From: an uncultured Coriobacteriaceae bacterium
Lineage (GTDB): Bacteria; Actinomycetota; Coriobacteriia; Coriobacteriales; Atopobiaceae
DNA length: 64,000 nucleotides
NCBI GenBank assembly: GCA_902786015.1
Contig: CADAAU010000010.1
Location: 62,001 to 126,000, forward strand
Direction of reading: 5' to 3'
Positions within the stretch are counted from its first letter, which is position 1. Each line of letters begins with the position of its first letter. The position numbers and the translations under genes were made by a program. The notes below the pieces were generated by a model. The model was not told where the DNA came from, did not search any database, and was given only the letters and a program-made list of their open reading frames with translations. Shown here one piece after another: positions 14,693 to 28,055 of this stretch.

Positions 14693-16142
14693 ATTGGTTG
14701 ATGCACGCCACGCTCCGCAGAATATTGCCGAGGGAAGCCGCCGCGACACGATGCCAGCCCGTTTCGTCACGGGAGGTAGCATGGATAGGAAGGAAGCTCT
14801 GAAGTACCAGGTCTTCTGCGGCGTCGACGTCGGGAAGGCGACGAACTACGTGGTGGCCCTCGGAAGGGACGACGACGAGAGGCTCGTGTCCCGCGCGGTC
14901 GAGCAGACGGAGACGGACATGCGTGCGGCTCTTGCAGAGGCCACGTCGCATGGTGTTACGCTGCTGGTCGTCGACCAACCGGGCTCGTTCGGCAGGCTGA
15001 CGGTCGCCGTCGCCCGCGACATGGGCATCGACGTGGCGCAGATCCCGCCGAAGAGGTTCAGGCAGGTGGCAGAGACGTACGGCGAGGGGAAGTCCGACGC
15101 GAAGGACGCCTTCATCATTGCCGACGCCGCGCGATCCACGCCCCGCAACGTGGAGCTGCTCGGCAGTCGTAGCGACGCAATCGCGGCGATAAGGGTGGTC
15201 ACCTCCTGCAGGGACGACGTCGTGCACGAGAGAACCCGCACGTACAACAGGCTGCACGACCTCATCAACCAGGTCTGCCCGCCTCTCGAGAGGCTCTTCT
15301 CCGGACAGAAGCTCCACAGCGAGCTCGCCACCAGGATATTCGCGCGCTACGGCGGGCCGCACGGCCTCAGGAGAGCGGGCAGGTCGCGGGCTTCGAAGTG
15401 GGCGGGGTCGCTCAAGTGGCACCGCAATGACGGCCCGGCGAAGATCGCCGAGGTCTTCGACGCGATCGACGGCCAGACGGTGGACATGCCCGGAACCGAC
15501 GCAATCGAAAGGCAGATCACAAGGCTCGCCGCACGCGCCCTCGAGCTGGAGACCGAGGAGAGGAGCCTGAACGGGGAGCTCGAGCGGCTGTCATCACTGG
15601 TTCCCGAGGTGTCGCTCCTCAGGAGCGTTCCCGGCATCGGCGCGGTCTATGGGGCAACCATAGCGGCGGAGATAGGGGACGTATCGCGTTTCAGCCGTCC
15701 GTCGAGCTTGGCCTCGTACGCAGGCGTTGCCCCCGTGAGGGAGGAGTCAGGCTCCAGCGTAAGCAGGAGCAGGAGGCGCAAGGGCGGGAACAGGCGCCTC
15801 AAGAACGCGGTCATAAGGTCGTCCGAGTGCTCCGTCCTCCATGACGAGGTGGCACGAGGCTACTACGATAGGAAACGCGCCGAGGGAAAGAGCCACAGGC
15901 AGGCGATTCGATCCCTGGCGCGCCGGCGCATAGATCTCGTCTATGCGCTCTTGAGAGACGGCACGCTCTACGAGCCGTCTTCGGGAAGAGTCTAGACGAG
16001 ATCGACATGGTTTGCCACGAAGGCCTGCAAAACCACAGGTCTCGGCTCGGCATGTCGAAAACCCCTGTAGAAAACCATTGCATGCATATCAAGGCGCCCG
16101 ATGTTTGTGGAGAGAATGAGTGGCCTCTCCTTATTGGTTGAT
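14693..16142 (+). mobile_element. IS110-family insertion sequence, about 1.44 kb
   Basis: One full transposase gene is flanked by short non-coding ends. A 10-bp direct repeat ATTGGTTGAT occurs at 14693-14702 and 16133-16142, bracketing the gene at a distance typical for IS110 elements, which lack terminal inverted repeats. I take the repeats as the approximate boundaries. The 78 bp before the gene and 137 bp after it are the places to look for the guide (bridge) RNA known in this family. Confidence 0.65.
14781..15995 (+). CDS. IS110-family transposase (DEDD recombinase)
   Basis: 404 residues, full length for the family. The start is the ATG behind GGGAGGTAGC; the frame is open 29 codons further upstream. 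The N-terminal RuvC-like DEDD domain shows CGVDVGKA (first Asp), VVDQPGS and KSDAKDAFIIAD. The C-terminal Tnp_20 domain shows VPGIGAVYGATIAAEIGD, SYAGVAPVREESG and RRRKGGNRRLKNA with the conserved Ser region. No stops or shifts are present, so it looks active. It catalyses RNA-guided insertion through Holliday-junction-like intermediates in characterised relatives. Confidence 0.93.
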   Translation: MDRKEALKYQVFCGVDVGKATNYVVALGRDDDERLVSRAVEQTETDMRAALAEATSHGVTLLVVDQPGSFGRLTVAVARDMGIDVAQIPPKRFRQVAETYGEGKSDAKDAFIIADAARSTPRNVELLGSRSDAIAAIRVVTSCRDDVVHERTRTYNRLHDLINQVCPPLERLFSGQKLHSELATRIFARYGGPHGLRRAGRSRASKWAGSLKWHRNDGPAKIAEVFDAIDGQTVDMPGTDAIERQITRLAARALELETEERSLNGELERLSSLVPEVSLLRSVPGIGAVYGATIAAEIGDVSRFSRPSSLASYAGVAPVREESGSSVSRSRRRKGGNRRLKNAVIRSSECSVLHDEVARGYYDRKRAEGKSHRQAIRSLARRRIDLVYALLRDGTLYEPSSGRV

Positions 16143-17035: not shown

Positions 17036-17614
17036 ATGTCGTTGGGCGAAGAGGCCTTCTCGTATAGGACGAAAGCTCGATACGGGAAGATGCCAGAAAA
17101 GAATTGTCTCGACCGGGTCAACGAGATTCTAGATGCTTGGGGGAGGTTCTGGGACCTCTCCCAATTTGACAAGTACGGCTGGAAGCCAAGATGGTCGACG
17201 TATGCATTGTCTGATGTGGTCATTCGTGTCGACAAGCGCAAGGAGTACTACGCGTTTTTCCATGACATGAAGATCAAGGAACGAAAGTATGCGGGATTGG
17301 TGGCATACTGGATAGTAAAGTTTCACCCATTTTCTGTGGACGTACGGAATCCTTCCGAGCTTACGCCGTATCAGGATTGGCTCATTGGGACCCTCAATGA
17401 GCGGTTTGCTGCGTATTTGCTCTACTCCGCCGTCCTCGGCGAAAACAGTCGCAGCGGTGAGGATGCTGTGCCCTTGACTACGAAGGACAAGGGCTCATAT
17501 TATGAGGCTCTCCTCTATGCGTTACGTTACAGGTGCGTAACAATAGATTCTATGATGCTCCTTGTGGAAACCATGACTCCCGATGACTTCGATCGTCGGG
17601 TGAGCAAAAAGTGA
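17036..17614 (+). CDS. Unrecognised basic cytosolic protein, second gene of the operon
   Basis: 192 residues, rich in aromatic and charged residues (RWSTYALSDVVIRVDKRKEYY, KERKYAGLVAYWIVKFHPF split here for length). No signal peptide, membrane helix or catalytic motif I recognise. It starts at the base after the previous stop and overlaps the next gene by 4 nt (GTGA). The tight packing on both sides indicates a single functional unit. It lies between an IS110 element and istB remnants, which suggests recent mobility. Function unknown. Confidence 0.7.
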   Translation: MSLGEEAFSYRTKARYGKMPEKNCLDRVNEILDAWGRFWDLSQFDKYGWKPRWSTYALSDVVIRVDKRKEYYAFFHDMKIKERKYAGLVAYWIVKFHPFSVDVRNPSELTPYQDWLIGTLNERFAAYLLYSAVLGENSRSGEDAVPLTTKDKGSYYEALLYALRYRCVTIDSMMLLVETMTPDDFDRRVSKK

Positions 17615-17958
17615 GGTGCGGTGTGGCTAGGGACGATGAGGGCTCGGTAATATCTGACATATTTGTAGAGATTGTTGCTGGCTTTTTCGCCGCGAATGCG
17701 CTGGGGGCTTTGCTGTCCTTCGCTCTTGAGCAAACCCAAATCGAGCAGGTCTATAAAAACGTAGTGCCGGTATGTGCGGCCGCCTTTATGGGGTCTCTAG
17801 TTGCCGCACTTGTTTGTACCCGGAGGATGAACAATCGGATTGGCCTCGTCCAGCGTGACCTTGACAAGTACAAGAGACTTTTGAATGAGTATGATGAGGC
17901 GAGTAGAGACGTCAAGTTGCTTCATGGCATTCGTCGACGCTTGAACGAGAGCGATTAG
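17611..17958 (+). CDS. Small membrane protein with coiled-coil tail, third gene of the operon
   Basis: 115 residues. Start GTG at 17611 overlaps the upstream stop (GTGA); a second GTG at 17623 preceded by GAGGT is an alternative. Two hydrophobic segments (about residues 18-42 and 50-68) form a helical hairpin. A charged, heptad-like C-terminal tail follows (LVQRDLDKYKRLLNEYDEASRDV). A two-helix membrane protein behind two soluble proteins resembles the effector layout of several abortive-infection systems, but no homology supports this. Confidence 0.7.
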   Translation: MRCGVARDDEGSVISDIFVEIVAGFFAANALGALLSFALEQTQIEQVYKNVVPVCAAAFMGSLVAALVCTRRMNNRIGLVQRDLDKYKRLLNEYDEASRDVKLLHGIRRRLNESD

Positions 17959-18519: not shown

Positions 18520-18954
18520 CTACCGCTTCGCCTTAAGCTGCTCCTGCCTCCTCTTCGTCCTCTCCCTCATGCTCACGTCTCCCATCTGTATCCTAATCGC
18601 GTTGTGACTATGCGGTCCATGATCGACTCCGCGTGGGCGCCGCCGTCCATGCGCCTGTGCCACTCGTCCACAGGGTACTGGGAGCAGAAGATGGTCGAGC
18701 TGCTGCCGTAGCGCCTCTCGGTTAGCTCGATCAGGAAGTGCATCTGGTTGGTCGTGGGCTTGTCGATGAGGTGCTCGTCGAGTATCAGCACCTTGTAGGC
18801 CGCGTACTTGTTCAGCACCTTCTTCTCCGGCCAGTCCGCGGCCATCTTCTCCGCGCGGTAGGCGAGCATGTCGGGCATGCGTATGTAGAGCGTCCTGAGG
18901 CCGTGCCTGCGGGCCTGCTTACCCAGGGCGCACGCAAGGAAGCTCTTGCCCTTA
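18520..18954 (-). pseudogene. istB: istB (IS21-family helper ATPase) remnant, 5'-truncated and frameshifted
   Basis: The frame begins at the P-loop residues GKSFLACALG and shows the Walker B region KVLILDE and the C-terminal ERRYGSSSTIFCSQYP and HAESIMDRIV motifs of IstB. The N-terminal DNA-binding half is missing. Near 18600 a one-base deletion shifts the frame; reading through restores NAIRIQMGDVSMRERTKRR and a stop at 18520-18522. IstB is the AAA+ targeting partner of the IstA transposase; no istA lies beside it, so this copy is dead. Confidence 0.85.
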
Positions 18955-18974
18955 TGTAAGAACCTACATAAGGG
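18949..18974. repeat. 26-bp palindrome joining two istB fragments
   Basis: CCCTTATGTA and TACATAAGGG are separated by 6 nt. The palindrome lies exactly where both istB remnants stop homology, at their P-loop codons (GGGCAAG on one side, GGGAAAG on the other). Confidence 0.85.
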
Positions 18975-19491
18975 AAAGACCCACATAGCCGTGGCCCTGG
19001 GCGTCGAGGCCGTGAGGTGCCGCAAGCTCACCTACTTCGCGGACTGCCAGCGCCTGGTGGACGACCTCAGGAGGGCCGCCTCCAAGGGCTAGCTCGAGAG
19101 GAGGATGAGGTTCTACGCCCACCTGTCACTGCTAATCCTCGACGAGCTTGGGTACCTCGGCATCGACAAGGAGGGCGCCGACCTGCTGTTCCAGCTCGTG
19201 AGCAGGCGCTACGAGCGCGGGTCGACGATAGTCACGACCAACGTCGGCATAGGCGCGTGGCCCCAGGTCTTCGGCGACCCGGTGACGGCCTCGGCGATAG
19301 CGGACCGGCTGTGCCACCACTGCCACGTCATCAGGATCACGGGCAGGTCCTACCGCATGAAGGACCTGCTCCCGGACCTGCCGGAGGGTGGCCTCGGCGT
19401 TACCAAAAACGGCGAATTAACGTTTGCGGGATTGGCGAAACTACGTTGGTGGAAATGGTGTGTAGGATTGGTGGAATTGGCGAAAGTGTAA
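18973..19491 (+). pseudogene. istB: Second istB remnant, 5'-truncated with a nonsense codon
   Basis: Starting at GKTHIAVALGVEAV (P-loop) the frame continues with LTYFADCQRLVDDLRR, then hits TAG at 19090-19092 where relatives have Lys. It resumes ERRMRFYAHLSLLILDELG (Walker B), RRYERGSTIVTTN and ASAIADRLCHH. The N-terminal half is missing. The last ~35 codons read into the element's terminal repeats rather than coding sequence. Sequence differs clearly from the minus-strand istB, so two different IS21 elements are involved. Confidence 0.85.
19431..19485 (+). repeat. Terminal repeats of the IS21-type element
   Basis: ATTGGCGAAA occurs at 19431-19440 and 19476-19485, with related GATTGGTGGAATT between. 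Multiple short repeats at the ends are typical of IS21-family elements, so the right end lies near 19500. Confidence 0.5.
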
Positions 19492-19593: not shown

Positions 19594-20727
19594 ATGGATG
19601 CGTTACGCGTGTTTACCGAAGAACCAGAGGTGGAACTGTGGAAAGCGCTGCTCCGCTACTCATATGCTACGAACATCAAGCGCTACTTTTCGGAGAATCA
19701 TATTGTGCCAAAAGAGGACGGGGACAGCTGCATCAACTGCATCTCCGGCGCATTGCTGCAGGCGGATGAGTATTACAGGGCGAGTCAGGGGGTAAGCCTC
19801 CAAGTACGACCGCTGCTGCTGTACTACGGAACGACGAACCTGTTGTACGCTATGTATGTGTTGATGAGTGGGACAATCCCCGATATCAAATGCCACGGCA
19901 TGCGCATCGAAGTCGCCGCTGACGACAAGCCCTTCATAGCGGACACGCTCGTGAGGTTCGATAATCCCAGAGACGGAGGGGTTCATCTGTTCGCAAAGCA
20001 GCTAGGCTATGATGTCAACCTGTGCGAGCTTGTCGACTGGGACCTCGGCATGTTCTTGGACTCAATTGCCGAGATTGCGCAGGATTTCGAGGAATGCTAC
20101 ACGGATCGGAGGTCGCACGTCCTGCTCTTGAACACTGTGAAGACGCCCGATGGAGATGTCGAGAAGGTATTCCTCAATGAGGGAGGTCAAGAGGTGTTCG
20201 CTGCTGTAGAAGGACTGAACAAGGCGTTCTTGACGCCACAGGAAGTGCGTTACCAGCAGGGTGGCCCTTATTATGTGCTGCGTAGGAAAATGGCAGGCAA
20301 GGATATAACGCGCGTGTCCTACTCTGGCCAGCCGTATCTCCAGGTTGCTCATCGGAAGGGCAAAAGACTGGTGACGGTATCGAGCGAGCTGGGCATGTAC
20401 ATTTCTCTATTTGTGCTGGGAAGCCTGTGCAGATACCATCCCGAAAAATGGAACCCATTCGTCACTCAGGATTCCACTGGCGAGAGGCTTCTGGTGGAGA
20501 AGCTCCTCTACTACGCGCGTCGCATGCTCCCCAATGTCGTGCTGAACGCCATCACCGGAAGAACGACGATCTTTGTGACGAGTAGGTTCGAGCCGGACAG
20601 CAGGATTCAGCCGGTCGGAGAGCATGAGGTTCGGGAAATCGTCCGCAAAGCGGTTGGACAACAGCTCAGAGCCGAGCAAGCCCGTCATGTAATGCATGGT
20701 TCGGAAGGACAGCGGAATGGCGACTGA
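19594..20727 (+). CDS. YaaC-family protein, first gene of a two-gene operon
   Basis: About 377 residues. Starts at 19570 (GTG) and 19579 (ATG) are possible; I prefer the ATG at 19594, which has GGAG 9 nt upstream. The motif YYRASQGVSLQVRPLLLYYG (about residues 62-81) and the later YARRMLPNVVLNAITGR match the YaaC-like family, known from Bacillus subtilis and without established function. The protein is soluble, with no signal peptide. It lies just past the IS21 terminus and overlaps the next gene by 11 nt, so the two act as a unit. The island setting suggests a defence role, but that is inference. Confidence 0.75.
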   Translation: MDALRVFTEEPEVELWKALLRYSYATNIKRYFSENHIVPKEDGDSCINCISGALLQADEYYRASQGVSLQVRPLLLYYGTTNLLYAMYVLMSGTIPDIKCHGMRIEVAADDKPFIADTLVRFDNPRDGGVHLFAKQLGYDVNLCELVDWDLGMFLDSIAEIAQDFEECYTDRRSHVLLLNTVKTPDGDVEKVFLNEGGQEVFAAVEGLNKAFLTPQEVRYQQGGPYYVLRRKMAGKDITRVSYSGQPYLQVAHRKGKRLVTVSSELGMYISLFVLGSLCRYHPEKWNPFVTQDSTGERLLVEKLLYYARRMLPNVVLNAITGRTTIFVTSRFEPDSRIQPVGEHEVREIVRKAVGQQLRAEQARHVMHGSEGQRNGD

Positions 20728-21811
20728 TTTCAAAGGGGCGGTCTTTGCCCTCTGCAAACAGCTAGCGATGCATCCCAAGGCGCAAGAGGTCAGTACCCTC
20801 ATTCATGACATAAGCGTGTTGAGGGAGACGGACACAGTGCCAGGGGGACTCGCAAAGCCGATTCACGGCGACCTTACGCAGGTTGCCTCATATGAGCACG
20901 CGCAGTTCCTGGGGTATCTGCTGGCCGACGAGTACTCAGAGCAGCTTAACCGTCACCAGTACGTCCGCGTAACGCGACTTGATGACCAAGAGCGCAGTAC
21001 CATAGGTTCCGCCCATGCTACACTGCGCCTCTTTCTTGACGAGTGCTTGGGCGAGCTTAGGGAGAGATACCCCAAGGCCTCGATTCTTCTGGACCCGTAT
21101 GCCAAGTTCAAGACCAATGTTGACAGATTGGGCTTTGAACCGTTCTTGACCAAGGAAGGCATCGCCACTTGCGTGTCGGCATTCAAGAGCGGAAAGCTCT
21201 ATGGCCAGCTGATGGCAAACGATACGCTAACGATACTGGAGGGCTCGACCATGCGGGACATCCTAAACGTTTCGGTTGCGCTCGACAGGCAGTTCACCGA
21301 AGTCATTGATGGGGCGTCAGAGGAGACCAAGGCGTTTCTCAGGAGAGCCCTTGTACGGACAACGTTTACCGCCGAGGACCTCCTTATGGCGAGCTGCTGT
21401 TACTGCCATGCGCTGATGCTCTCGCTGACACTTGCGCTTCAAATGATGTTCGACGCGATAATGGGCTCTGACCTCATCGTATTGGATAACGACTGCATTA
21501 TAGACATGCAGAGCCATCAGTTGGACCAAGTGTACGATAGGTATTCAGTGCTGTTGCAAGGCGCACTCTTTTCATTGGCGAGCGACACCGTGGGTAGCAT
21601 CGCACTGCTCGACTGTGACCTGCCTAACCAACGCCACATCAAAGTCTTCGGTGTTGTATATGCACTCACCGTCAACTTTGCCGGTGAGTTCGGAGAGACA
21701 TCCAAGGTATCAATGCTGAGCTTAGACGGCGAGCTTAACCGCATGCATCGCATGACTGATACTATGCTAAACTCCCCAATTGGTAAGACACGGGTTGTGC
21801 TTGAGCATTAA
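20717..21811 (+). CDS. Unrecognised partner of the YaaC-family protein
   Basis: 364 residues. The ATG follows GGAAGGACAGCGGA and lies inside the last codons of the YaaC gene, so translation is coupled. The protein is largely alpha-helical. A hydrophobic patch (SCCYCHALMLSLTLALQMMF, about 230-250) may be a buried helix rather than a membrane span. I recognise no domain or catalytic motif. It is followed by 290 bp of non-coding DNA and an IS3 remnant, so the operon has just two genes. Function unknown. Confidence 0.7.
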   Translation: MATDFKGAVFALCKQLAMHPKAQEVSTLIHDISVLRETDTVPGGLAKPIHGDLTQVASYEHAQFLGYLLADEYSEQLNRHQYVRVTRLDDQERSTIGSAHATLRLFLDECLGELRERYPKASILLDPYAKFKTNVDRLGFEPFLTKEGIATCVSAFKSGKLYGQLMANDTLTILEGSTMRDILNVSVALDRQFTEVIDGASEETKAFLRRALVRTTFTAEDLLMASCCYCHALMLSLTLALQMMFDAIMGSDLIVLDNDCIIDMQSHQLDQVYDRYSVLLQGALFSLASDTVGSIALLDCDLPNQRHIKVFGVVYALTVNFAGEFGETSKVSMLSLDGELNRMHRMTDTMLNSPIGKTRVVLEH

Positions 21812-22099
21812 CCATCTATTGTTGATTGCGGGCATGTCAGGCGATATGGAATCGCATCCACGCTGATGGGATAATTCCGTATGGTAATTGGGGGCTTGGA
21901 AACAACAGCAACGACCACTTACATTCGGTGTAGGGTTTTCCTACCCGCGTTTATAGATTCCTGTGCGGAGGGGAACAGCGAACGTTAGAGCTTTGCGATT
22001 GGTGAGGTGTATCGTTTTCTCAGACACGGAGAACTCAGGTCATTTAGGTAGTTATATTTCCTATAAGATATTGAGTTTCACACGTGATTGGAGAGGAAG
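21812..22099. other. Non-coding gap with a weak hairpin
   Basis: The stretch contains GTAGG/CCTAC around a GTTTT loop near 21930, a possible terminator, and presumably the left end of the IS3 remnant. No gene is supported. Confidence 0.4.
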
Positions 22100-22911
22100 A
22101 TGGCTAACAAGTACACCGACGAGTACAGGAGAGAGGCCGTGGACTACGTCCTCAACTCCGAGGGGAAGTCGATCAAGGAGTGCGCGAGGGAGCTCGGCCC
22201 CGACGACAAGACCTTGTCCCACTGGGTCTCCAGGTTCAAGAAGGAGGGCAGGACCGGATCGGGCATGACCGACGAGGACATGGAGATTGCCAGGCTCAAG
22301 AGGGAGAACGAGCGGCTGAGGATGGAGAACGAGTTCCTAAAAAAGCAAGCGCCTTCTTCGCCAGGAACCAAGCGTAGAGGAGGGGTACCTCCTCATGGCG
22401 GCGGAGAGGGCGAAGTATCCCGTGAAGATGATGGCGGAGCTGCTCGAGGTGAGCAGGCAGGGCTTCTACCAGTGGCTCTCCAGGAACCCGGACGCAGGCC
22501 ATGACCCGTGGTCCAGGCTCAGGGACGCGATACGTGCGGTGTGGGAGACGAGCATGCGGATCTTCGGGGCGAGGCAGATACTGCACGGCCTGCCGGAGGA
22601 GTTCGACGGCACCACGCTATATAGAGTGAGGAAGCTCATGCGCGAGCTCGGGATCTGCGGCGTCGTGCCCCATAAGAAGAAGAGGACGACGATTCCCGAC
22701 GAGGGCGCGCCCACGCGCCCTGACCTCGTGAAACGCGACTTCACGAGCCCCGTGCATGGCTCTACCTCGCGACCGTGGTCGACCTGGCCACGCGCATGGT
22801 CGTGGGCTGGGCGATGTCGGAGCGCATGACGGCCGACATCGTGGTCTCGGCGCTGGAGATGGCGCACGGCCGCGGCTACGTCGCGGACGGATCCATATTC
22901 CACAGCGACTA
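22100..22911 (+). pseudogene. IS3-family transposase remnant (orfA plus broken orfB)
   Basis: orfA starts at the ATG after GAGAGGAAG and encodes the helix-turn-helix and leucine-zipper region (YTDEYRREAVDYVLNSEG ... RLKRENERLRMENEFLKK). It reaches a CTAAAAAAG slippery run near 22340 where IS3 elements shift -1 to make OrfAB. The orfB part (AERAKYPVKMMAELLEVSRQGFYQW, split) is out of register, has lost about 60 bp between FTSPV and LYLATVVDLATRMV including the first catalytic Asp, and stops being homologous after IFHSDY. The element is inactive. Confidence 0.88.
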
Positions 22912-22990: not shown

Positions 22991-23048
22991 CGAAACCCAA
23001 TAGCATCGTGCCCGTACCCATCCGATTCGATTGAAGGGAGAAAAGGGA

Positions 23049-23880
23049 ATGGGCACGAGCATATCAAGCATAGCGGAGCACGCAGTGGGGGCGCTCCGCG
23101 CGGCCGGCTACATGGAGTCGACCGTGGGCCAGTACCGGAAGATCTTCCGCTACCTTGCCGAAAGCAGCGAGGACGGCATGTGGTCGGACGGCGTCGGCGA
23201 GGCGTTCGTCGCTGCCACCAGGCCAGACGGCAGGCCGTTCGAGCACAACTACCAGCTGTCGAGGGAGCGCGTCGTGTCACTCTGCGCGGACTTCGCCGAG
23301 ACCGGGCGCTTCGACCTGTCGATGCGGGCCGACAGGCCGAGGATGCCGGAGCCGAGCCACGACGGCCTGTGCGCCTCGCTGGCCGACTACATGCGCGCCA
23401 ACGAGGTGCGCGGACTCGCGGCGGGGACACGCGACTACTATGCGAGGCTGGCCAGGGAGTACCTGCTTCACCTGGAGCGCATCGGCGTCGACGACGTGGA
23501 CCTCGCCACGCCCGCCAGCGTCGCGTCCTTCATGGCAGACATCGCGGCCCGCTGGCCCAACACCTCCACCTACCACCTCGCGAGCAACTTCCGCCCCTTC
23601 CTGCGCTTCCTGGGAAGGGACGACCTTGTCGAGGCCCTCGCGCTCACCAGGCCGCGCCGGGAGCACCGCATCATCGAGACGCTCACCGACGACCAGGCCG
23701 ACGACGTGGCCGACGCGTGCGTGGGCGGCGGCGTCGCGCCGATGGACGCCGCGATCACGCTGCTGGCGCTCACCACCGGCATGCGCGCGTGCGACATAGT
23801 CGCGCTGTGCGTCTCCGACCTCGACTTTCGCACGCCGGCAGTCTCGTTCGTGCAGCGCGACGAGGCGCCGGCTCTTGATG
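23049..23880 (+). pseudogene. Tyrosine recombinase/integrase, 3'-truncated
   Basis: The ATG follows AAGGGAGAAAAGGG. The N-terminal SAM-like core-binding domain is complete (GTRDYYARLAREYLLHLERIG, split; NFRPFLRFLGR), and the catalytic domain begins with LLALTTGMRACDIVALCVSDLD, containing the first catalytic Arg. Homology then stops at about 23880. The HxxR and Tyr motifs are absent because the frame runs into an unrelated glycosyltransferase scrap. It may have moved the island in the past but cannot act now. Confidence 0.85.
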
Positions 23881-24126
23881 CGTTCTGGCTGGGTGGCGTG
23901 CGTGCCCAACGCGCTGGTCCACTACCGCGAGCGGGAGGGGAGCATCTCCAAGCAGCACACAGCGGCGAACCTCGTGGACTACTGGCGAGCGTACCTTGAG
24001 TGCTACGAGGAGCTTAAGGAGATCTCGGGGGATAGGTTAAGACACCCGACCCTAACAGGAGTTCCGCAGGACGTGCGTGCGTGGGCGCCGCGCGCTGGTC
24101 AGCCGGCTTCGCGTGCCGCAGATTAG
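23881..24126 (+). pseudogene. Fragment of a family 2 glycosyltransferase
   Basis: In another frame from the integrase, about 50 codons read NALVHYREREGSISKQHT and DYWRAYLECYEELKE, which resemble the C-terminal part of GT2 enzymes (the Y-x-R-x-R-E-G-S-I-S motif). No start, no catalytic domain and no continuation is present, so this is a scrap left by a deletion or recombination event. Confidence 0.5.
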
Positions 24127-24239: not shown

Positions 24240-25130
24240 TCAAATCCAGGCCTGCTCTTCTGGACTCCACGCGCACCCTTCCACCTTGCCCTCGAGGACG
24301 GGTCGCAGCCAATCCGCCACAGCCGCCTCTGCCGCTGTGACCTCCTCGAACTCGCGGGGAAGCTTCGCCTCCTTGGCCATCTTTCGGTAGTTGCCGGAAA
24401 ACGTCGTCTTCCACGTCGCTGGTACGGCGAATTCGTCGATGGGGCTCATATGCCTGAACGCGACCTCTAGGCTCAAACGTCTCGCGAGCTTGCCTGCGTC
24501 GACATTCTCGTTCAGCATGGAGGTCACCAGGTCGGCGAGATCCTTCACCCTCGACGACGGACCCGTGGCATATGTCTGCATGGTGGCGCAGGTCTTCTCT
24601 GCAACGCGCGTCTCAGAAGTGTTTGCCACATAGTCGAAGCACACGAGGCCCGCCACATCGAGCCTGGCTGCCGGGGTTAGGACCTCGAAGTCTGTCGGTG
24701 GAATGGGGTCGACGACCAGGTCAACCGACAGGGCGCCTATGCGTTTCGTACCGCCAAGCCACGTGTCGAAGGTTACGGTGTAGCCCTCGCGGTAGTCTTG
24801 CGAGGTGTCCGTAGGCACGGCATCGCGGAATCGGAACTCGATGAAGTCGCCGAGGTCGACAGCGGCGGCCTCTTTTAGCTCGGAGAGTGCCTCGTCGAGG
24901 TCCGGAGTGCGTCCGAGCAGGTCCACGTCCCGGGTCTCACGGGTATTCGGGATTTTGGCCAGCATGCTCTGTCCGCCCTTCAGGACGAACGCGGGCTCGC
25001 TTGACGCGAACGTCCTGCACAGGAACCGGTCGTGGTAGAAGCCCGCTATGGCCTTGTTCGTGTCCCGGCCAGATTTCACGGCCGCAGCCTTGACGGCCTG
25101 CTCGAGGGCTTTGGGCGTCTTGTACCTCAT
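24240..25130 (-). CDS. abiEii: AbiEii-type nucleotidyltransferase toxin
   Basis: 296 residues, normal length. The nucleotidyltransferase core shows FVLKGGQSMLAKI (KGG about 51-53), then RDVDLL (catalytic Asp pair 68-70) and a third acidic strand in SVDLVVDPIP. AbiEii proteins modify RNA (tRNA acceptor ends in studied relatives) and arrest growth on phage infection. The start overlaps the upstream antitoxin gene by 4 nt. The pair is intact, so this is a probable functional type IV toxin-antitoxin/abortive-infection system. Confidence 0.88.
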   Translation of the reverse strand: MRYKTPKALEQAVKAAAVKSGRDTNKAIAGFYHDRFLCRTFASSEPAFVLKGGQSMLAKIPNTRETRDVDLLGRTPDLDEALSELKEAAAVDLGDFIEFRFRDAVPTDTSQDYREGYTVTFDTWLGGTKRIGALSVDLVVDPIPPTDFEVLTPAARLDVAGLVCFDYVANTSETRVAEKTCATMQTYATGPSSRVKDLADLVTSMLNENVDAGKLARRLSLEVAFRHMSPIDEFAVPATWKTTFSGNYRKMAKEAKLPREFEEVTAAEAAVADWLRPVLEGKVEGCAWSPEEQAWI

Positions 25131-25915
25131 TGGTGTCTCCCAGCATTATTCCCGCTTTGCATAAGCGTTTCAATGGCCTCTCGGAATCTCTCGCGCGTTA
25201 CGGAATCGGCTTCCGTGCCCTGGAGAATCTGGGCAATGGACTGTAACGCATATTGAACCTGCGCGTCCGCAGCGTAGTCGGAGGCGAGCTTGCGTGCGAA
25301 CGCGCCGCCGTCACCCTTGGCGAACCCGTTGCGAGCTGCAAGTGGAGAGAGCAGCTCCGCGAGCCTGCTTTCGTCCAAGATGTGACCTCTGCCGCACACG
25401 CCGGCAACGAAGTTACCCACGAGGCTCGGGTCCTCGTGGTCGCGGACGAGGTCGGCCACCGTCCGCTCGACGCACGTCACGGGCAGGCCATCGATTATGA
25501 CCACGTCGCCCTCGTCGACTGGCCATGGGTGCAGCTCGACGTCCGCGCGTGTGGTTCTCTTGGGCACGGGCACGTCGAATGCGAAGGGCGCCTCGTAGAA
25601 GCCGGTATCGCCGTGCATGCACGCGGCGGTTCTACCGGCAACGACCGCGTCGCGTGGCCGCGAGCGGAGCCGCTCGAATGCGTTGAGCTTCGGGTGAAGC
25701 GAGAGCCACGCTGCCTTGACCGAAACACGTATCGTCTCCTCGCCGTCCGCCATGCGGTAAACCCCGTAGGATGCGGGCTCGATGCGCCCCCTTGCGGCCA
25801 TCCGGGAGAGCTGCGTCCTGCTCGCGCCCTCGCCTATTGCCTGCGCGGTCGTAAAGAGCCCCCACTGCGATGCGGCGAGCTCGAATACCCGTTGTATGTC
25901 ATCTCTGCTTGGCAT
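25127..25915 (-). CDS. abiEi: AbiEi-type antitoxin/transcriptional regulator
   Basis: About 262 residues. The N-terminal winged-helix domain (SQWGLFTTAQAIGEGASRTQL split around GLFTTAQA; RMAARGRIEPASYGVYR) is the standard AbiEi start. The C-terminal domain carries the VTCVERTVADLVRDH motif. AbiEi represses the operon and neutralises AbiEii. Two ATGs (25928-25930 and 25913-25915) are possible and neither has a good ribosome site, so the start is uncertain. It overlaps abiEii by 4 nt. Confidence 0.85.
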   Translation of the reverse strand: MPSRDDIQRVFELAASQWGLFTTAQAIGEGASRTQLSRMAARGRIEPASYGVYRMADGEETIRVSVKAAWLSLHPKLNAFERLRSRPRDAVVAGRTAACMHGDTGFYEAPFAFDVPVPKRTTRADVELHPWPVDEGDVVIIDGLPVTCVERTVADLVRDHEDPSLVGNFVAGVCGRGHILDESRLAELLSPLAARNGFAKGDGGAFARKLASDYAADAQVQYALQSIAQILQGTEADSVTRERFREAIETLMQSGNNAGRHQ

Positions 25916-25950
25916 GTCGATATCATACACCTATATGTGTGCAAAATCGA
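25916..25950 (-). promoter_or_regulatory. Possible AbiEi operator
   Basis: ACACATATAGGTGT, a short inverted repeat (ACAC/GTGT around ATATAG), sits at the likely start of the operon. AbiEi proteins bind inverted repeats at their own promoter; this one is weak. Confidence 0.3.
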
Positions 25951-26538: not shown

Positions 26539-26599
26539 CCTGGACATCTTTCTGGACATATTCTGGACATTATCTGGACATGCGACTATTATGTCCAGA
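26539..26599 (+). promoter_or_regulatory. Helically phased TCTGGACAT repeats (operator-like)
   Basis: YCTGGACAT occurs at 26539, 26551, 26562 and 26573, spaced 12, 11 and 11 bp, and once inverted (ATGTCCAGA) at 26591. They end 28 bp before the next start codon. Spacing near one helical turn is typical of cooperative repressor sites. Confidence 0.75.
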
Positions 26600-26627
26600 A
26601 AGTCAGCTATCGTCACCGGAGGATATG

Positions 26628-28055
26628 ATGGACGGACGTCTTGCTCAGTACCTCTTGCAGGGGGAGGGCATCAGTCTCGAGTTCAAGCGCTGCGGGAACC
26701 AGCCGGGCGCGGACGTCTTCGAGACGATCTGCTCGTTCGCCAACCGCCAGGGAGGGAGCCTGCTGCTCGGCGTGCTCGACGACGGCTCGGTGGAGGGCGT
26801 CCCCGTGCAGTCTGCGCTCCCCATTGAGCGTAACCTCGTGAACGTGACCTGCAACCCCAAGCTGTTCAACGTCGCACCGGCCATAGAGTGCGAGCGCATC
26901 CCGTGCGGGGACGGTCGCGTCGTCGTTCGCGTGTGGGTTCCCATGGGCCCCTCGGTCTACGCTTACAAGGGCGTCGTTTACGATCGCAGGGGCGACTCTG
27001 ATGTTCGGCTTACGGGCGAGGCGGACAGGGCAGCGATGGCCGTGCGCAAGCAGTCGTACTACACCGAGCGCACAGTCTATCCGTGGGTGGGCGAGTCGGA
27101 CCTAGACCTTACGCTGCTCAAGATGCTGCGCGACGAGGTGCGCGCGAACGATGCGGGGCATCGGTGGCTTGCGCTAGACGACGAGGAACTGCTGCGGGAC
27201 GCTCGTCTCTTCTCCCGTGATCCCGTGAGCGGCGAGCGGGGCTTCAACCTCGCCGCGGTTATGCTGCTCGGTCGCGAGGACACGATTCTCGACGTGGCGC
27301 CCGTCTACCGCACCGATTGCGTGTTGAGGCGCCTTGACGTCGAGCGCTACGACGACCGCCTAACGTGCACGTCGAACCTCATGCTTGCATACGACGAGTT
27401 GGTCGGCTGGTGCGAGCGGTGGCTGCCCGACGCCTTCGTGCTGGACGGCGACCGTCGTGTGGGCGCGCGCGGCATCATCGTAAGGGAGCTCGTGAGCAAC
27501 ACGCTCATCCACCGCGAGTTCGTGAGCCCGCGCATCGCGACCGTCACCATAGATAGGGACGGCATCCGCACGCGCAACGCGAGCCGTGCGCTCTGGAGCG
27601 GGCCAGTGGACCTTGAGAACCTCGACCCCACACCCAAGAACCCCATCATCGCGCGCGTCTTCACGCAGATGGGCCGCTCGGAGGAGCTGGGGAGCGGCAC
27701 GCGCAACCTGTACAAGTTCTCGCGGCTCTACTCGGGCGAGGACCCCGTGCTCGTGGAGGGCGACTGCTTCGAGGCATTCGTGCCGGTGCCCGATGTCTCT
27801 GGAGGCCGCCGGCCGGACGGGTCCGGCGTGAGCGATGGGCTAGGGGTCGCGTCCGCGGAGGTCAGAGAGGCCGTCGAGGGCCTCCTCGCGCGCTATGGCT
27901 CCTTTGCCGCATCCGAGCTTTCGAGGGAGGTGGCCTCCGTCGGCGAGCGCACCGTCAGGCGCTACCTCGCCAAGATGGTGGCTGGCGGCGAGCTGCGCGT
28001 AGTCTCGGGCGGTCGCTCCACGAGGTATGCCGCGGGGGAGAGCGGCGGCGAATAG
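26628..28055 (+). CDS. AlbA_2/Schlafen-type ATP-binding protein with C-terminal wHTH
   Basis: 475 residues. The start is the second of two adjacent ATGs, 5 nt after GGAGG. The N-terminal AlbA_2 domain (EGISLEFKRCG, DVFETICSFANRQGGSLLLGV) is followed by a middle region and an ATP-binding HATPase-like segment (REFVSPRIATVTI preceded by IIVRELVSNTLIHR, GRSEELGSGTRNLYKFSRLY). The C-terminus is a winged helix (YGSFAASELSREVASVGERTVRR, split). Such proteins are common, often repeat-bound regulators or defence-island genes. It probably binds the phased repeats just upstream, which is inference. Confidence 0.85.
   Translation: MDGRLAQYLLQGEGISLEFKRCGNQPGADVFETICSFANRQGGSLLLGVLDDGSVEGVPVQSALPIERNLVNVTCNPKLFNVAPAIECERIPCGDGRVVVRVWVPMGPSVYAYKGVVYDRRGDSDVRLTGEADRAAMAVRKQSYYTERTVYPWVGESDLDLTLLKMLRDEVRANDAGHRWLALDDEELLRDARLFSRDPVSGERGFNLAAVMLLGREDTILDVAPVYRTDCVLRRLDVERYDDRLTCTSNLMLAYDELVGWCERWLPDAFVLDGDRRVGARGIIVRELVSNTLIHREFVSPRIATVTIDRDGIRTRNASRALWSGPVDLENLDPTPKNPIIARVFTQMGRSEELGSGTRNLYKFSRLYSGEDPVLVEGDCFEAFVPVPDVSGGRRPDGSGVSDGLGVASAEVREAVEGLLARYGSFAASELSREVASVGERTVRRYLAKMVAGGELRVVSGGRSTRYAAGESGGE

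Follow-up and report, generated by a model that had tools for sequence, protein, structure and literature searches.

The locus analysed in this study raises the question of what a YaaC-family protein does when its gene is joined to that of an orphan partner beside insertion-sequence debris. It lies in the window, the whole stretch of 64,000 nucleotides analysed here, from an uncultured Coriobacteriaceae bacterium. A preliminary description of this DNA had stated that YaaC-like proteins have no known function; this holds within the literature searched (subscription papers and preprints lay outside its scope), in which we found neither a function for YaaC nor a mention of the terms PF14175 and 'YaaC family protein'. 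The same description had suggested that the pair constitutes an undescribed defence or toxin-antitoxin system.

Gene structure and coding status of the pair

The yaaC-family gene occupies positions 19594..20727 on the + strand (ATG at 19594, TGA at 20725-20727) and encodes a protein of 377 amino acids. The orphan partner gene occupies positions 20717..21811 on the + strand (ATG at 20717) and encodes 364 amino acids. The start of the partner gene and the stop of yaaC share an overlap of 11 nt, ATGGCGACTGA (20717..20727, + strand), and an overlap of this length had been described correctly. The yaaC start at 19594 is backed by alignment with the YaaC of a second locus, L002, and the conserved start of the partner is 20717 rather than the upstream ATG at 20696. 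Scans for promoters and terminators gave results no better than those for shuffled sequences.

In 200 shuffled versions of the region, no stop-free frame was longer than 268 amino acids; both genes exceed this maximum and hence are not chance open reading frames. Comparison of the window and L002 copies revealed mismatches at codon positions 1/2/3 of 118/95/229 and 141/95/223 for the two genes. The dN values between the copies are 0.33 and 0.42, and dS is saturated, so that no value is computable. As most mismatches fall at the third position of the codon and synonymous change has reached saturation, both YaaC and its partner are under constraint.

Family membership of the first gene and its C-terminal extension

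Analysis of the first protein revealed a match to PF14175 with E=1.3e-27 and 97.4 bits (curated cut-off 27), covering YaaC residues 39-320 and profile positions 23-307 of 307. The conserved pattern YYG...HG...G...RYxPxxW is present, and all columns invariant in an alignment of 16 members are retained (Y78, H101, G102, G128, R280, Y281, W286 and P313). On its sequence, the first gene can thus be assigned to the YaaC family.

The window protein differs from other members in a C-terminal extension of 57 amino acids (residues 321-377) past the end of PF14175 and in the overlapping downstream gene; the other members examined have no orphan partner. In the L002 YaaC, PF14175 ends at residue 322 of 379, also leaving 57 amino acids, whereas unpaired YaaCs (n=4, same measure) continue for just 2-15 amino acids beyond it. 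The 16-sequence alignment agrees, with the extension in the paired YaaCs and in none of the other aligned members. As it is found only where the partner is present, the extension is a natural candidate for contact between the two proteins, and it is a plausible docking element for the partner.

The idea of a HEPN domain at the N-terminus of YaaC drew no support from profiles, as 0 of the 16 members matched a HEPN family in Pfam up to E=10. An AlphaFold model of YaaC from a two-sequence alignment reached a pLDDT of 37, too poor to judge a HEPN fold.

The orphan partner protein

The 364-amino acid protein had been described as belonging to no recognised family, and our searches of Pfam, NCBIfam, PADLOC, PHROGs and PDB agree with this, yielding no significant match. 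Its conserved blocks are KPxHGDLxQVA, LMASCCYCHAL and ELNRxHRMTD. No catalytic motif was recognised in either YaaC or the partner, and the AlphaFold model of the partner (two-sequence alignment) gave a pLDDT of 33. Three candidate relationships were rejected. A match to TssF (E=0.029) is below the family cut-off; a match in genome G192 (E=3.7e-5) is short, lies inside a selenocysteine-synthase-like frame and drops to E=0.16 with the profile; and profile comparison between the partner and YaaC, considered as possible duplicates, shows no relationship. Tblastn, peptide patterns and three scans with degenerate motifs found no copy of the partner in plasmids, phages or viral contigs.

Conservation of the pair within one genus

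A single homologous locus was identified, L002; it belongs to a metagenome-assembled genome of Atopobiaceae from the genus of the window itself. There the gene for a 50% identical partner again lies downstream of yaaC, and the overlap is again exactly 11 nt, ATGGCAGATAA. YaaC is 58% identical between the two loci, compared with 84% for RelA; the values for the pair imply that it is older than the split of the genomes or is evolving faster than core genes. When the open reading frames of the window were searched by tblastn against 40 kb around the L002 copy, only the pair reached the cut-off, hence the two copies lie in different neighbourhoods. The coupling of YaaC with its partner, as originally proposed, is upheld, since the pairing and the 11-nt overlap both recur at an unrelated site in another genome.

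Of 400 Coriobacteriia genomes, just two carry YaaC, and just these two carry the partner; a search for the partner across 140 genomes of the family yielded those two again and no others. The chance of hitting the same two of 16 genus members is 1/120. Because just two copies are known, both from one genus, this co-occurrence may represent a single ancestral event. The results indicate that yaaC and its partner form a genuine unit of two genes, which is very rare and known from one Coriobacteriia genus.

Defence setting of the two copies

The debris of IS21 and IS3 elements reported earlier beside the window pair was found on both sides of it. Upstream lie two IS21 IstB fragments (18573-19031, - strand, and 19105-19491, + strand; PF01695, E=9.7e-19 and 2.6e-30). 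Downstream are IS3-type orfA/orfB fragments (22088..22829, + strand; PF01527 E=4.8e-12, PF13276 E=1.4e-9), followed by an integrase-like fragment (23031-23999) with a PHROG integrase match. An AbiEii/AbiEi abortive-infection pair (24240..25930, - strand; PADLOC AbiEii E=1.3e-75, AbiEi E=5.1e-66), a neighbour outside the unit, is situated 2.4 kb downstream of the yaaC-partner pair. Like AbiE, the yaaC-partner pair is bicistronic, overlapping and accessory and lies in an island, but it has neither a nucleotidyltransferase nor an AbiEi-type antitoxin domain, and the two systems share no domain. In an empty-site comparison of this region, the chosen flanking genes were either lacking from relatives or represented there by paralogues.

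The second copy is located directly upstream of a Thoeris system on the same strand (L002:7326-9068), comprising a ThsA macro domain protein (E=5.9e-35) and a ThsB TIR protein (E=6.7e-99), and a PDC-S26 nuclease lies beyond ThsA/ThsB. The pair itself differs from Thoeris in having no TIR, macro or SIR2 domain. The PADLOC 2.0.0 models contained no family for either YaaC or the partner at E up to 1. Both known copies (n=2, a number that permits no statistics) are defence-island genes by location, and since both lie near phage-defence genes the pair may be an undescribed defence module.

Other genes of the window island were also recorded. An apparently intact IS110-family transposase gene (14694-15995) lies on its left side. 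Upstream of the IS21 debris, two more genes of no recognised family (17036-17958) overlap by 4 nt and encode a 192-amino acid protein and a 115-amino acid probable membrane protein, making them another candidate accessory pair. Adjoining the AbiE pair, positions 26580-28055 encode a 491-amino acid Schlafen AlbA_2 protein with a weak RecG-type HATPase match and no PADLOC match.

YaaC outside the genus

A total of 15 YaaC loci outside the genus were compared, on plasmids and in genomes of Rubrobacter, another actinomycete lineage, Streptomyces, Pseudarthrobacter, Methylobacterium, Eleftheria, Leclercia, E. coli, Yersinia and Klebsiella; a truncated YaaC copy on a Rubrobacter plasmid and a Priestia copy beside guaB were also examined. 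These YaaCs occur without the partner and mostly on plasmids, and a search of all open reading frames of the YaaC loci fetched by then with the partner profile gave matches only in the two known genomes. The co-occurrence analysis proposed in the preliminary description thus gave a divided result, with the partner beside YaaC at two of two loci within the genus but at none of the 15 outside it. The partner is consequently no general partner of the YaaC family, and the family itself is accessory and mobile.

Some of the YaaCs outside the genus adjoin Abi, ABC-3C, SIR2, type I RM or DNA methylase genes. By hand-scored annotation, a defence-type gene was present within about 5 kb at 9 of 15 YaaC loci, and 3 of the 11 stretches used as controls also had one (p=0.13); when the same scoring was restricted to the 11 plasmids for which a matched control existed, the numbers were 6 versus 3 (p=0.39). 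The enrichment is not significant and is suggestive only.

Two further arrangements were observed. On an Eleftheria plasmid (L010:4613-7032), genes for a DUF4231/SLATT-like protein, GTP cyclohydrolase II and YaaC stand in a row, the first two overlapping, which possibly represents a different YaaC-containing operon. Two enterobacterial plasmids (L050:4397-6512 and L059:4397-6512) encode, after a recombinase gene, a YaaC of 506 amino acids with a long N-terminal extension, and one of these plasmids carries blaNDM-1.

Proposed explanation and alternatives

The pair can be described as a partnered, extended form of the known YaaC family, with a suggestive link to defence. We propose that yaaC and its partner form one operon whose overlapping frames are probably translationally coupled, and that the two genes have travelled together, by inheritance or by transfer, among the defence genes of one Atopobiaceae genus. 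The two proteins would most likely form a complex, and the C-terminal extension of YaaC, which is specific to this lineage, would be where the partner docks. To judge from its location, the most likely role of this complex is that of an accessory module for defence against phage or other mobile DNA, probably through abortive infection, where one of the proteins would be the sensor and its counterpart the effector. This reading as a whole is offered tentatively, at somewhat below an even chance. The narrower claim that Coriobacteriia possess an undescribed two-protein anti-phage system, in which YaaC acts with the orphan partner through the extension, we consider possible but rather unlikely.

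The main alternative is a non-defence accessory operon, in which YaaC keeps a cellular role, for instance in guanine-nucleotide metabolism, to which this lineage has added a partner, and the island location reflects only the landing sites of horizontally acquired genes. We give it a real but clearly minor chance. In the Bacillaceae (B. subtilis and Priestia) yaaC adjoins guaB, a co-evolution analysis places yaaC in a group with relA, folE, ndk and pyk (PMC3814617), the Eleftheria YaaC gene follows that for GTP cyclohydrolase II, and control stretches of the same plasmids hold defence genes too. Against this, both Coriobacteriia copies lie among defence genes and not metabolic ones, and a gene present in just 2 of 400 genomes has no core function in Coriobacteriia. 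It is also conceivable that the pair no longer has a function and is simply cargo in decay within a mobile region, as the broken IS21 and IS3 genes around it might imply; the intact frames of two divergent copies and the pattern of substitution between them, mostly at third positions with dS saturated, make this the least probable of the explanations considered.

A toxin-antitoxin system, in which one protein is toxic, the other neutralises it and the overlap keeps the genes in step, would fit the overlap of the two genes, their place in a mobile region and the AbiE pair nearby. However, the proteins are 377 and 364 amino acids long, our domain searches found neither a toxin or antitoxin domain nor one for DNA binding, and YaaCs lack the partner in every other lineage examined, which makes a classical system of this kind unlikely; the combination of a toxin domain and a small, usually DNA-binding antitoxin that marks type II systems was not seen in searches of Pfam, NCBIfam and PADLOC. 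Alternatively, the pair could be ancillary to a defence system next to it instead of forming a module by itself; its position immediately upstream of ThsA/ThsB in L002 and on the same strand speaks for this. Among the genes scanned in the vicinity of the window pair, none belongs to Thoeris, and the two loci have only the pair in common; we regard this explanation as very improbable. The original suggestion of an undescribed defence or toxin-antitoxin system is supported in part: both copies have defence neighbours, but our results support neither a particular activity in defence nor toxin and antitoxin of the classical type.

YaaC proteins span Bacillaceae, resistance plasmids of enterobacteria and plasmids of Streptomyces; a fixed partner with defence neighbours in one lineage offers a concrete route to testing the role of the family. 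If the anti-phage reading of the pair is true, a member of the YaaC family would have a function assigned for the first time, and plasmid-borne YaaCs would become defence candidates.
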